Assembly: GCF_947495715.1 (NCBI RefSeq)
Contig: NZ_CANLZU010000020.1
Coordinates: 1-64,000 of the forward strand
Direction of reading: 5' to 3'
DNA from: an uncultured Oceanisphaera sp.
Lineage (GTDB): Bacteria; Pseudomonadota; Gammaproteobacteria; Enterobacterales; Aeromonadaceae
DNA: 64,000 nucleotides
The position numbers and the translations under genes are program-made. Positions 33,406 through 63,916 of this stretch are shown piece after piece. The notes below the pieces were generated by a model. The model saw only the letters and a list, made by a program, of their open reading frames with translations, was not told where the DNA came from and did not search any database. Positions within the stretch are counted from its first letter, which is position 1; the number at the start of each line of letters is the position of its first letter.

Positions 33406-34779
33406 ATGGTAGATGAGAGACTGAGTGTCTTGTTGGTAGAGGATACGGCATCGCTGGCGGCGCTGTATCAGGCCTATTTGCAGGATGAGCCACTGTCGCT
33501 GACGGTGGTCAGCAATGGTCAGCAGGCGCTGGAACATATTCGGCGACAACCACCAGATATTCTGTTGCTTGACTTGATCTTGCCCGACATGCCCGGCATG
33601 GAGATCCTGAAGTGGCTACACCGGGAGCAGCCGAATGTGACCACCATAGTGATGACGGCCCATGGCTCGGTGGACGTGGCGGTGGATGCCATGCGCCTGG
33701 GAGCGCATGATTTCATCAATAAACCGGTGGAAGCCGAGCGCCTCAAGGTGACCCTGCATAACACCATGAAGTTCCGCCATCTCAACCAGTTGGTGGACCG
33801 CTATCGCCACGAAATCGAGCGAGAGCCCTTTCAGGGCTTTATCGGCGCCAGCCTGCCGATGCAGAAGGTGTTTCGCCTGATTGAGAATGCCGCGCCCAGT
33901 ACCGCCACGGTGTTTGTGACCGGTGAAAGTGGTACCGGTAAGGAAGTGTGCGCCGAAGCGCTGCATCAGCTCAGTGGCCGCCGCGAAGGGCCCTTTATCG
34001 CCCTGAACTGTGCCGCCATTCCCAAGGATTTGATGGAAAGCGAGTTGTTCGGCCATATCAAGGGCGCTTTTACCGGCGCCCTGCAGGATCGGGACGGCGC
34101 CGTGATCCGAGCCGATGGCGGTACCCTGTTCATGGATGAAATCTGTGAAATGGATCTGGAGCTGCAGAGCAAGCTGCTGCGCTTTTTGCAGACCGGTCAG
34201 ATACAACCGGTGGGCAGCTCCCAGCAGATAAAGGTTGATGTGCGCATCGTCTGCGCCACCAACCGGGATCCTCTGGTCGAGGTGGAGCAAGGGCGTTTTC
34301 GGGAAGATTTGTATTATCGCCTGCATGTGATCCCCATTCATCTGCCGCCGCTGCGGGAGCGGGGAGGTGATGTGATCAGCATCGCCAACGCCCTGGTGCG
34401 TCAGGCGTCGCGAGAAGAAAACAAGTCGTTCGTCGGCCTGTCCGAGGCCACCAAAGACCGACTGCAGGGCTACCACTGGCCGGGTAACGTGCGTCAACTG
34501 CAAAACGTGATTCGTAATGCGGTGGTGCTGCATCAGGGTGAGTGGATAGAGCAGGACATGCTGCCGGCGCCGCTGGATACCCCGCAGACGGCCAATTCAA
34601 CGGCACAGCCGGTGACCGATGCCATGCCTGCGCCCATAGTGCCTTTGTCGGTGATCGAGCGCCAGGCGATAGAAAGGGCCATCAGTCATTGCCAGGGCAA
34701 TGTTTCCCGGGCCGCGGCCATGCTGGAAGTCAGCCCTTCCACCATTTATCGTAAACTGCAGAGTTGGGATAATAACTGA
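33406..34779 (+). CDS. luxO: LuxO-type sigma-54-dependent response regulator
   Basis: A 457-residue regulator with a receiver domain (phosphoacceptor Asp56 in LLLDLILPD), an AAA+ domain with Walker A GESGTGKE and the sigma-54 contact loop GAFTGA, and a Fis-type helix-turn-helix (NVSRAAAMLEVSPSTIYRKLQSW). Sequence runs such as VLLVEDTAS, MTAHGS and CATNRDP match Vibrio LuxO closely. In Vibrio, phospho-LuxO with sigma-54 activates Qrr small RNAs that control quorum sensing. It overlaps the following HPt gene by one base. No LuxPQ/LuxN sensor is in the window. Confidence 0.92.
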   Translation: MVDERLSVLLVEDTASLAALYQAYLQDEPLSLTVVSNGQQALEHIRRQPPDILLLDLILPDMPGMEILKWLHREQPNVTTIVMTAHGSVDVAVDAMRLGAHDFINKPVEAERLKVTLHNTMKFRHLNQLVDRYRHEIEREPFQGFIGASLPMQKVFRLIENAAPSTATVFVTGESGTGKEVCAEALHQLSGRREGPFIALNCAAIPKDLMESELFGHIKGAFTGALQDRDGAVIRADGGTLFMDEICEMDLELQSKLLRFLQTGQIQPVGSSQQIKVDVRIVCATNRDPLVEVEQGRFREDLYYRLHVIPIHLPPLRERGGDVISIANALVRQASREENKSFVGLSEATKDRLQGYHWPGNVRQLQNVIRNAVVLHQGEWIEQDMLPAPLDTPQTANSTAQPVTDAMPAPIVPLSVIERQAIERAISHCQGNVSRAAAMLEVSPSTIYRKLQSWDNN

Positions 34780-35153
34780 TGGCTGACTGGCAACGTCTGC
34801 AGGCACGACTTCCCTTGCTTGATCAACATCAGTTGCAACGGATGGAACAAGAGCTGGGAGCCGAGGTGCTGACTCGGTTGCTGCGGCTCTTTGTCGAAGA
34901 TAGCAGACAGCAGGGGGAGGCCCTGCAAGGGGCCTTTGCCGAGCGGGATCATGCCTTGATGGCCCGCTGCTGCCATAGCCTGAAATCGGCCTGTGGCAGT
35001 TACGGCGCCCTGCGCTGTCAGTACCTGAGCGAAAAGCTGGAACAATCCTGTCATGAGCAGGATGAGGAACAGGTGGAAAGCCGGATGCGGGCATGGCAGC
35101 AAGCGCTGGCAGAAACCCTGCAGCAACTTGAAACCCGGCAGCACGCCGAATAA
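34779..35153 (+). CDS. luxU: LuxU-type histidine phosphotransfer protein
   Basis: A 124-residue HPt protein. Phospho-accepting His66 lies in CCHSLKSACGSYGA, the usual HxLKxxxxxxG pattern. Translationally coupled to luxO through TGATG. In Vibrio, LuxU carries phosphate from hybrid sensors to LuxO. The C-terminal half is a long helix rich in Gln and Glu. Assignment rests on the HPt motif plus its luxO neighbour; overall similarity to Vibrio LuxU seems modest. Confidence 0.85.
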   Translation: MADWQRLQARLPLLDQHQLQRMEQELGAEVLTRLLRLFVEDSRQQGEALQGAFAERDHALMARCCHSLKSACGSYGALRCQYLSEKLEQSCHEQDEEQVESRMRAWQQALAETLQQLETRQHAE

Positions 35154-35158
35154 CAGGC

Positions 35159-35188
35159 AAAAAAAATGGCCAACCCAAAGGGTTGGCC
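35159..35188 (-). terminator. Minus-strand terminator, convergent with luxU
   Basis: GGCCAACCC (35168-35176), AAA loop, GGGTTGGCC (35180-35188), then A followed by T8 on the minus strand. The plus-strand side has no T run. Confidence 0.9.
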
Positions 35189-35232
35189 GAACTTCAGCTA
35201 GAGCTGAAGAGAGCACGGGATAAAAACAACTG
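35159..35232 (-). ncRNA. Candidate sigma-54-dependent small RNA beside luxU
   Basis: On the minus strand, predicted RNA of about 74 nt: 5' leader rich in U, a hairpin CTTCAGCT/AGCTGAAG (35192-35209), then a terminator hairpin GGCCAACCC/GGGTTGGCC (35168-35188) and eight U. The T run exists only on this strand, and no minus-strand gene is upstream, so it is not the luxU terminator. A near-consensus sigma-54 promoter lies 20 bp before the start. This is the layout expected for a Qrr-like RNA driven by LuxO, but the Vibrio Qrr core is not recognisable. Confidence 0.6.
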
Positions 35233-35242
35233 CATACATATA

Positions 35243-35259
35243 TGAAATAATCGTGCCAA
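35243..35259 (-). promoter_or_regulatory. Predicted sigma-54 promoter
   Basis: Minus strand reads TTGGCACG-ATTA-TTTCA. Compared with the consensus TGGCACG-N4-TTGCW the -24 half is perfect and the -12 half has one mismatch (TTTC for TTGC). Expected start site is near 35232. Confidence 0.65.
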
Positions 35260-35370
35260 CTTTTCAAATGCAGTCATGACGGGGTTTTTCATCTTTTCGG
35301 TCAAAATATAAACTGGTCATATTGCAATAAATATTCTTTTTGCAATGGCAATATTCTCAATATGATAATC

Positions 35371-35437
35371 TCACGCCTCACGCCTCACGCCTCACGCCTC
35401 ACGCCTCACGCCTCACGCCTCACGCCTCACGCCTCAC
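35371..35437. repeat. Tandem heptamer repeat TCACGCC x9.5
   Basis: Nine perfect copies of TCACGCC (35371-35433) followed by TCAC. Intergenic, between the small RNA candidate and moaA. A sister array of TCACCCC units lies at 63917-63954. Confidence 0.95.
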
Positions 35438-35530: not shown

Positions 35531-35545
35531 CGAAATATGTCAAAA

Positions 35546-35650
35546 ACTCCGAGTCGGGTACACCTACGTTGGCCAAGGTCAATAGGGTGGCCAGACCGTT
35601 CAGCCAATGGCTGTCAGGGTTGGGAGAGAAATGTCCCTGCCTCCCGTATT
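35546..35650 (+). promoter_or_regulatory. Moco (molybdenum cofactor) riboswitch
   Basis: The leader of moaA contains ACTCCGAGTCGGGTACACCTACGTTGGCC-type sequence near its start, GGTCAATAGGGTGGCCAGACC in the middle and the paired TTGGGAGAG/CTGCCTCCCG at its end. Structure and position correspond to the MOCO_RNA motif known before moaA in many gammaproteobacteria, where it represses Moco synthesis when the cofactor is plentiful. Identified by memory of the motif, not by a covariance search. Confidence 0.72.
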
Positions 35651-35664
35651 TGGAAAGGTGTTTT

Positions 35665-36645
35665 ATGTTTGAACTACAGGATGCGTTTGCGCGCAAGTTC
35701 CAGTATCTGCGGCTGTCGGTGACCGACGTCTGCAACTTCAAGTGCAATTACTGTCTGCCGGACGGCTATCGCCCCGATGGTCGCAAGACATTCCTCACCC
35801 TGGATGAAATCCGTCGTCTGACCCGGGCTTTCGCCGCCATGGGCACCAGCAAGGTGCGCATTACCGGCGGAGAGCCCTCGCTGCGCAAGGATTTTACCGA
35901 CATCATCGAAACCGTGGCGGCAACGCCCGGCATTCAAAAGGTGGCCATGACCACCAATGGCTATCGCATGGCCAAGCACGCCGCTGACTGGCGTCGTGCC
36001 GGCCTGACGGCCATCAACGTCAGCGTCGACAGCCTGGACCCGCGCATGTTTCACCAGATCACCGGCCAGAATCGCTTTCATGAAGTGATGGCAGGCATCG
36101 ATGCCGCCTTTGACGCCGGTTTCGAGCAAATCAAGGTCAATGCGGTGCTGATGCGGGGTCTCAACGACGGTGATCTCGACCGCTTTCTGGCCTGGATCAA
36201 GCACAACCCCATTCAGCTGCGCTTTATCGAGCTGATGCAGACCGGCGAAATGGACGAGCTGTTCAACCGGCACCATGTGCGTGGTCAGCTTATCAAGCAA
36301 CAGTTGCTGCAGCAGGGCTGGCAGCAGAAGCTGCGCGCCCATAACGACGGCCCGGCCGAGGTCTTCTGGCATCCGGATTATATGGGTGAAATCGGCCTGA
36401 TCATGCCCTATGCCAAGGACTTCTGTGCCAGTTGCAACCGGCTACGGGTGTCGTCGCTGGGCAAACTGCACCTGTGCCTGTTTGGTGACTATGGTGTGGA
36501 CTTGCGCGATCTGCTGGCCGAGGATAATCAGCATGCCGCCCTGCAGCGGCGACTGCGCGATGCCCTGGCCGATAAAAAAGCCACCCACTTTCTGCACGAA
36601 GGCCATACCGGCATGACGCCCAACCTCGCCTCCATCGGCGGCTAA
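35665..36645 (+). CDS. moaA: GTP 3',8-cyclase MoaA
   Basis: A 326-residue radical-SAM enzyme that starts molybdopterin synthesis by converting GTP to 3',8-cyclo-GTP. The SAM cluster Cys are C23, C27 and C30 (CNFKCNYC), and a second C-terminal cluster is seen in FCASCNRLR. The C-terminal double Gly, needed for catalysis, is present (ASIGG). The ATG at 35665 is preceded by GGAAAGG. First gene of the moaABCDE operon. Confidence 0.97.
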
Positions 36646-52994: not shown

Positions 52995-53165
52995 GAAAGG
53001 TCACTTAGAAGCACGCCACCCACAGGTGACAACCCGAAGGATTCAGCCTTCGTAGCCGAGGATGATACGCTGCCCCGCATCATCCTCTCGGCGTTATCTC
53101 CCCTGACCGGCGATCTGGGGAGTGGGAGCTCCTCCTGCCGGCTGCCTGAATAACGCGCCTCTTCT
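52995..53165 (-). promoter_or_regulatory. Lysine riboswitch (L-box)
   Basis: Minus strand has AGAGGCGCGTT, GGAGGAGC, a stem around GCCGAGAGGATGATG/CATCATCCTCGGC, then GGCTGAATCC and GGGTTGTCACC, the same order and near-identical to the E. coli lysC leader. It should fold with lysine and shut down lysC. The 3' end is about 60 bases before the TTG start. Confidence 0.92.
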
Positions 53166-53188
53166 TGCCCGACATGCGGGCTGCCATA

Positions 53189-63644: not shown

Positions 63645-63855
63645 TACCGGGGGACGAGTGATGATCAACCAATGAGCAGGCCATGCCGCCCGTCCCCGGT
63701 ATCGGCATCAGCCTGTCAAAGGTCTCGTCAAACCACGGATGTCTTGTTAACAACTTATCAACAAGATAGTCGGGTCACGGCCACCATGGTGATTCGCACC
63801 AATTATGTTGACGACCGTCTCGACACTCACTGTCGAGAGACTACTCCCCCTTGTG
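63645..63855 (-). promoter_or_regulatory. yybP-ykoY manganese riboswitch
   Basis: Minus strand shows the 5' GGGGGAGTAG (63841-63850), a long variable stem, then GGCTGATGCCGATACC (63699-63714) and CGGCATGGCCTGCTCATTGG, the consensus of the family. CGTCCCC near the gene (63650-63656) can pair with GGGGACG of the aptamer (63691-63697), a plausible switch. It sits right before a GDT1 Mn exporter. Confidence 0.85.
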
Positions 63856-63916
63856 CAGGAGCCGCGTATTGTAGTGATTTGAACGGCAAGTTCAAGGCTG
63901 ATCGCTAACCTGTTTC

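Follow-up and report, generated by a model that had tools for sequence, protein, structure and literature searches.

Is a small RNA made from the strand opposite luxO and luxU and, if so, what switches it on and which messages would it act upon? The window, the whole 64,000-nucleotide stretch of Oceanisphaera DNA analyzed here, was described in a first-pass annotation as carrying a minus-strand sigma-54 element, a hairpin and a run of eight T residues beside these two genes, and all three lie exactly where they had been placed (Table 1). No minus-strand gene had been seen ahead of the terminator; the minus-strand open frames at the locus run antisense through luxU, and none is recognized as a gene.

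A predicted RNA gene beside luxO and luxU

The protein encoded by luxO has features expected of LuxO: the receiver aspartate, the AAA+ domain, the Fis-type helix-turn-helix and the GAFTGA loop, which the first-pass annotation had rightly called intact. NF041946 fits it best of 117 families, with 665 bits (under the cut-off of 800) against 409 for the next, and the LuxU protein matches NF041948 with 42.7 bits, under the cut-off of 140. Transcription of the RNA would probably start at 35232, some 12 nt past the −12 element, and the transcript is predicted to comprise, from 5′ to 3′, a U-rich stretch, the core, hairpin 1, a 9-pair hairpin and the T8 tract. The 5′ hairpin foreseen earlier is retained in this two-hairpin fold, and the length is corrected from about 74 nt to about 73 nt. 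The 73-nt RNA folds with −27.0 kcal/mol, compared with −13.4 ± 2.3 for 200 shuffled sequences (z −5.9), none of which folds as well. The luxU stop codon and the T tract are five bases apart. Since a T tract follows the stem on the minus strand only, the stem is unlike a terminator of luxO-luxU.

Table 1. Positions in the window of luxO, luxU and the elements of the predicted RNA gene
Feature	Position	Strand	Basis or remark
luxO, sigma-54 activator	33406..34779	+	Receiver D56, GAFTGA at 220, AAA+, Fis-type HTH
luxU, Hpt phosphotransfer protein	34779..35153	+	His 66
Predicted small RNA gene region	35260-35159	−	Sigma-54 element, RNA with two hairpins, terminator
Predicted small RNA, about 73 nt	35160..35232	−	Estimated start and end (in U tract)
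Sigma-54 −24 element TTGGCACG	35259-35252	−	Sequence match
Sigma-54 −12 element TTTCA	35247-35243	−	One mismatch to TTGCW; N4 after TTGGCACG
Near-invariant core UUUAUCCCGUGCUCUCUUCAG	35204..35224	−	Alignments of homologues
Hairpin 1, CUUCAGC/GCUGAAG	35192..35209	−	Folding and pair counts
Intrinsic terminator stem GGCCAACCC/GGGUUGGCC, 9-pair hairpin	35168..35188	−	Sequence; pair counts
Terminator T8 tract	35159..35166	−	One A between stem and T8
LuxO-site position −69, TTGCAATATGACC	35315..35327	−	One good half-site, 3 mismatches
LuxO-site position −87, TTGCAAAAAGAAT	35333..35345	−	One good half-site, 3 mismatches
LuxO-site position −109/−110, degenerate	35355..35367	−	4 mismatches

Scans for the promoter and the terminator stay at chance level, and a single sequence is therefore insufficient as proof: one-mismatch sigma-54 matches number two in the 64 kb window versus 3.7 expected, and terminator-like sites between 34000 and 37500 number two versus 2.6, while a sigma-54 pattern loosened to fit this very site matches once versus 0.18 expected. 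It is conservation that settles the reality of the gene. BLAST with 141 bp found a homologue in 34 of 61 genomes, every one in the window's family, and a covariance model found the RNA in 70 of 75 family genomes, with one strong copy apiece (G018 has a second match, of 28 bits). Elsewhere in the window, the minus strand carries a lysine riboswitch (53001-53171) and a manganese (yybP-ykoY) riboswitch (63701-63861).

Conservation, structure and host range

In the alignment of 34 homologues, GTTGGCA is invariant, as is TTTCAT but for one T that is nearly so; the core and both hairpins vary little or not at all, the flanks vary, and the single-stranded 5′ part is better conserved than the hairpins. 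Together with the position beside luxU in all loci of the window's genus that carry the RNA (22/22), this bears out the expectation that promoter, hairpins and location would be conserved in related genomes. The five family genomes in which the RNA is absent are G023, G012 and the fragmented or incomplete G035, G087 and G097; the small genome of G012 keeps luxO-luxU and moaA and, as judged by eye, lacks the RNA between them (L160, about 2215-2150).

A pattern search for the core returned 92 loci, 56 with a −24 element (50 of the 80 among those listed) and 36 with none. The latter were dropped; 33 of these 36 lie inside open frames of at least 150 codons, those of the five Rheinheimera and Alishewanella loci being 391-393 codons long. 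Across the 69 distinct loci that we compared, which were chosen for TGGCA(C/T) so that the invariance of GTTGGCA rests on the 34 unselected homologues, the −12 element reads TTTCA in 64, TTCCA in three, and ATTCA and TTTCT in one each; at two Succinivibrionaceae loci it is TTGCT/TTGCA.

Each of the 40 distinct RNA sequences folds as two hairpins with the 5′ part unpaired. Hairpin 1 is paired in 98.2% of cells, four of its seven pairs never varying, and the terminator stem in 91.6%, with four of eight counted pairs changed on both sides. Standard pairs fill 94.7% of cells overall versus 91.8% in shuffles, and changes on both sides of a pair affect 5 of 15 pairs in 21 cells versus 7.0; further pair types (11) are no more numerous than in shuffles (11.4). 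Structures slid out of register reach at most 47% standard pairs. Succinivibrionaceae copies differ entirely in terminator sequence and keep UUUAUCCCGUG, and in more distant members (L229-L231) hairpin 1 is changed or replaced as well. What outlasts these changes is the U-rich stretch and AUCCCGUG, which pinpoints the presumed pairing region; we presume that the single-stranded 5′ two thirds of the core pairs with targets.

Could the locus be a mere minus-strand terminator or a decayed remnant, devoid of functional RNA? The chance-level scans would agree with this idea, but the 21-nt core has been held nearly invariant in two families while the terminator changed completely, and the stems carry compensatory changes, making it highly improbable. 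Translation of a small protein from the GTG in CCCGUGCUC, the frame being open in the window, has hardly any probability, as loops differ in length from species to species by numbers that are not multiples of three, which shifts the frame, and no Shine-Dalgarno-like stretch directly precedes the GTG. Comparison of genomes shows the gene with its promoter, structure and conservation; that it is transcribed we infer.

The order was searched with an RNA-only model of given structure (R2), which replaced a model (R1) whose promoter-RNA helix cannot form in the transcript. R2 matches the window at 35160-35227 with 90.5 bits, and it matched 46 of 394 genomes, 34 in the window's family, six in Succinivibrionaceae and six weakly elsewhere. 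The weak matches (G057, G230, G257, G321, G374 and G379; E 0.001-0.009) are taken as chance, as they have no similar promoter, no LuxO motif and no intact core. Hosts listed in the core-pattern search are Oceanisphaera, Oceanimonas, Zobellella, Aeromonas and Tolumonas, along with assemblies named Succinivibrionaceae, Aeromonadaceae and Aeromonadales and two named just proteobacteria. In our counts, the window's genus (g1) is taken as Oceanisphaera, Oceanimonas and Zobellella; groups g3, g4 and f3 are taken as Tolumonas, Aeromonas and Succinivibrionaceae, and f22 is equated with Vibrionaceae because Vibrio-type Qrr occurs there. The first-pass annotation had proposed the LuxO target of a single genus; in all members of that genus that carry it the RNA is beside luxU, but the RNA marks much of the order Aeromonadales.

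LuxO sites, LuxO co-occurrence and possible signal input

Two papers give the LuxO enhancer motif as TTGCA-N3-TGCAA (PMC10162802, PMC11443567). Upstream of the promoter, exact copies occur in 27 of the 69 loci versus 0.2 in shuffles, copies within one mismatch in 55 versus 3.0, and copies within two mismatches in 63 versus 18.9, counts that treat related species as separate, the species not being independent, and that include two loci with shorter upstream stretches (L047, 18 bases; L089, 132). At one Succinivibrionaceae locus (L042) the motif occurs four times without a mismatch, at a spacing of 21 bp. In the window strain and its closest kin the best sites carry 3 mismatches; the half-sites of the window fall where sister species have better sites, and several sister species have one-mismatch sites at −69 and at −109/−110. 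Just upstream of the enhancer region, the 7-bp unit CTCACGC is repeated perfectly 9.7 times in the window (35370-35437), and two sister species (L003, L004) have similar GGCGTGA repeats in the corresponding position.

The RNA accompanies LuxO even where the two are unlinked, as they are in the genomes tested from Tolumonas, Aeromonas (luxO elsewhere in 5/5) and Succinivibrionaceae. Of 18 family genomes tested, 17 have a LuxO orthologue, with 57-100% identity (one a partial match); the sole genome without it, G023, is one of those that lack the RNA. Among 56 Succinivibrionaceae genomes, 15 have LuxO, and all six that bear the RNA are among these 15; five of the 56 apparently recur in another search and are counted once. 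In the ten that were certainly searched, the RNA is present in three of four with LuxO and in none of six without. No RNA match came from G405, which has LuxO. LuxO is also present in G141, G158 and G325; these three do not appear in the list of RNA matches, and possibly lie outside the searched sample.

One alternative is that sigma-54 acts here with an activator other than LuxO, such as a SypG-like or NtrC-type protein. SypG also activates V. fischeri qrr1 from overlapping sites (PMC10162802); the LuxO sites of the window are weak, and in Aeromonas rivuli a LuxO-like activator (38% identity) is encoded close to the RNA. However, the upstream motif matches the one published for LuxO, the RNA of Succinivibrionaceae is found only with LuxO, and G023 lacks both, and we regard another activator as unlikely. 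The proposal that LuxO and sigma-54 drive the RNA thus fared well with respect to motifs, co-occurrence and location, and genome comparison shows the enhancer motifs and the LuxO association; dependence on LuxO in this particular strain we infer.

Gene order offers hints about the signal. In the window's genus, luxO and luxU are followed by the RNA on the opposite strand, and the distance from the core to moaA is at most about 520 bp in 18/22 loci and about 1.1 kb in the other four, where a receiver-like frame intervenes. On that side of the RNA gene, a molybdenum cofactor riboswitch precedes moaA in the window (35535-35676, 86.6 bits). At the A. salmonicida locus (L074), the RNA points toward the end of a series of genes: a luxU-like Hpt gene, an opposite-strand gene, a FIST protein gene and a hybrid kinase gene. 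Group g5 has luxO, luxU, a CofD-type gene, FIST, kinase and RNA all together (L070). After luxO in Tolumonas (L159) come FIST and a hybrid kinase that itself carries an Hpt domain. The RNA lies apart from them, at locus L098, next to a gene that resembles exonuclease I.

Genes for a FIST (NosP-like) protein and a hybrid histidine kinase are thus clustered with luxO or luxU in Tolumonas (L159:5923-10474), Aeromonas (L157:6910-10065) and g5 (L070), an arrangement that suggests nitric-oxide input into the LuxO pathway. NosP is a FIST-type nitric oxide sensor that inhibits VpsS, a kinase of the V. cholerae quorum-sensing pathway (PMC8738867), and by analogy either nitric oxide or cell density is a plausible input here.

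The reading that we consider very probable is a LuxO- and sigma-54-dependent, base-pairing small RNA that is a functional counterpart of Qrr with a new core. Each genome would encode a single regulatory RNA of about 73 nt, whose transcription by sigma-54 RNA polymerase would be triggered by phosphorylated LuxO at enhancer sites some 60-200 bp upstream. LuxU, or an Hpt protein resembling it, would hand the phosphate on to LuxO; in Aeromonas and its sister genus, the phosphate probably comes from the hybrid kinase whose gene lies next to those of the RNA and the FIST sensor. In its 5′ part the RNA would leave UUUAUCCCGUG(CUCU) single-stranded, ahead of the small hairpin and the terminator with its U tract, and it would base-pair to mRNAs, probably with the assistance of Hfq. 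It would act as Qrr does, through a different pairing core; in Tolumonas and the window's genus it would do so in the absence of LuxR/HapR.

Targets and the relation to Qrr

LuxR/HapR is the usual target of Qrr, and a leader of this type had been suggested for a target search, a suggestion that found no support. LuxR/HapR-type regulators (NF040929, E 1e-25, all below its cut-off) were found in 37/37 Aeromonas and 2/3 g5 genomes; at the same threshold they were found in none of 23 genomes of the window's genus, though luxO and luxU are kept, in none of 11 Tolumonas genomes and not in G023. None of seven TetR proteins found in the window's genome matches NF040929 at E 1e-8. The canonical Qrr target can therefore hardly be the main one in the window's genus. 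In Aeromonas, luxO, luxU and litR are all present; there the litR leaders of the eight tested (of 39 genomes with a match) gave no significant pairing (p 0.06-0.98). Sixteen luxO leaders likewise gave none (p 0.105-0.78).

Sites complementary to the core modestly exceed control. With GAGAGCACGGGA and up to one mismatch, eight genomes gave 68 matches, eight of them the RNA genes themselves, leaving 60 versus 49 for the reversed pattern; no recurring gene start was seen among the 22 of these 60 sites examined. Exact CACGGGATAA gave 89 matches in 18 genomes, including 18 RNA genes, leaving 71 versus 48 in the control, and at none of these 71 sites, all examined, does a gene recur across genera at its start. 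The sole recurrence, an exact 10-nt core complement, lies at the end of a recF-like frame, ~72 nt before gyrB, in 5/6 genomes of the genus (L247, L261, L275, L277 and L280); as a target it was rejected, since codon conservation is a sufficient explanation. Single genomes have an exact 10- or 12-nt complement at or near a ribosome-binding site (L260, Aeromonas; L301, Tolumonas; L195, G026), that of G026, seen in this genome only, at the start of a 356-codon frame. The starts that we take to be galE-like (L260), tssK-like (L301) and, at a further single-genome site, argP-like are not evidence of targeting. The near-invariant seed offers a starting point for target finding.

How, then, is the RNA related to Qrr? 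In the window region there is no covariance-model match to Qrr (RF00378), even at E 10. RF00378 was found in 19 of 295 genomes of the order, 18 over the cut-off and all of these Vibrionaceae, and in none of the window's family. No Rfam 15 family matches the RNA in the window or six related loci; the best sub-threshold match, to suhB/mmgR (RF00519), which also has two hairpins with a U tract, was rejected as an identity because its score (17.8 bits versus a gathering threshold of 41, E 0.19) is at chance level. When six loci were compared with three Vibrio-type qrr loci, the promoters aligned above shuffles in 17/18 comparisons (p 0.014 or less), whereas the RNA bodies gave p > 0.05 in 17/18 and 0.028 in the remaining one. 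The conserved Qrr core, present as GACGTTGTTAGTGAA in the three Vibrio-type loci (L178-L180), is absent from the RNA. As judged by these alignments, the switch is common to the RNA and Qrr, and the body is not recognizably so.

A true orthologue of Vibrio Qrr by descent, in which promoter and terminator were retained and the pairing core replaced, is conceivable but doubtful. The promoter alignments, the identical enhancer motif, a CCAAYC/GGTTGGC-like stem shared by both terminators and the fact that either RNA can lie near luxO would all fit such descent. However, the promoter likeness is partly the sigma-54 consensus itself, the terminator likeness is gone in Succinivibrionaceae, the bodies do not align, and the window's family has no RF00378 match. 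Moreover, Vibrionaceae qrr lies opposite luxO (PMC10162802), and the RNA described here lies beyond luxU or the kinase, at the other end. Of the earlier claim of a Qrr counterpart as LuxO target, control by LuxO is thus supported, with descent from Qrr the less certain part. Most likely, this is a genuine Aeromonadales RNA family that has no Rfam name, is driven by LuxO and sigma-54, and base-pairs with targets other than those of Qrr.

For Aeromonas, the A. salmonicida genome paper points to the small RNAs of Vibrio and adds that genes not yet identified may play a part (PMC2556355). A review of Aeromonas quorum sensing describes proof for the LuxO pathway as so far only genetic and contains no occurrence of Qrr or sRNA (PMC5247445). 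The accessible PMC literature yielded no account of this RNA, nor of one resembling Qrr in Aeromonas; subscription journals lie mostly outside it, and novelty is not proven. The RNA is a concrete, testable candidate for the missing link from LuxO to output in Aeromonas and its relatives, and its distribution suggests that a LuxO circuit can run without HapR and without Qrr. We lean toward the broader proposal that Aeromonadales LuxO circuits swapped their RNA output and kept the enhancer-sigma-54 switch, with an unrelated RNA, built around the 11-nt heart UUUAUCCCGUG in two families, serving a pathway that possibly senses nitric oxide as well as cell density and that in several genera has no LuxR/HapR.

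Among known systems, GlmY/GlmZ and CrcZ are likewise sigma-54-promoted small RNAs, with different activators, sequences and partners. Like the Qrr RNAs of Vibrionaceae, the RNA has a sigma-54 promoter with a AAAAGTTGGCAC block and an upstream LuxO motif (at family level), and is a small RNA with a conserved core and an intrinsic terminator ending in a U tract, its gene near luxO. Unlike Qrr, which has 108 positions in the RF00378 model, it is about 73 nt long, present in one copy, located on the other side of luxO-luxU, and found where LuxR/HapR is not. With respect to input, the V. cholerae LuxO-LuxU phosphorelay, fed by NosP and VpsS, likewise pairs a FIST protein with a hybrid kinase, here encoded near Hpt and/or LuxO genes. 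A difference is that at the loci examined in Tolumonas, Aeromonas and g5 these genes, of putative function, cluster with luxU and/or luxO and, in the latter two, also with the RNA.
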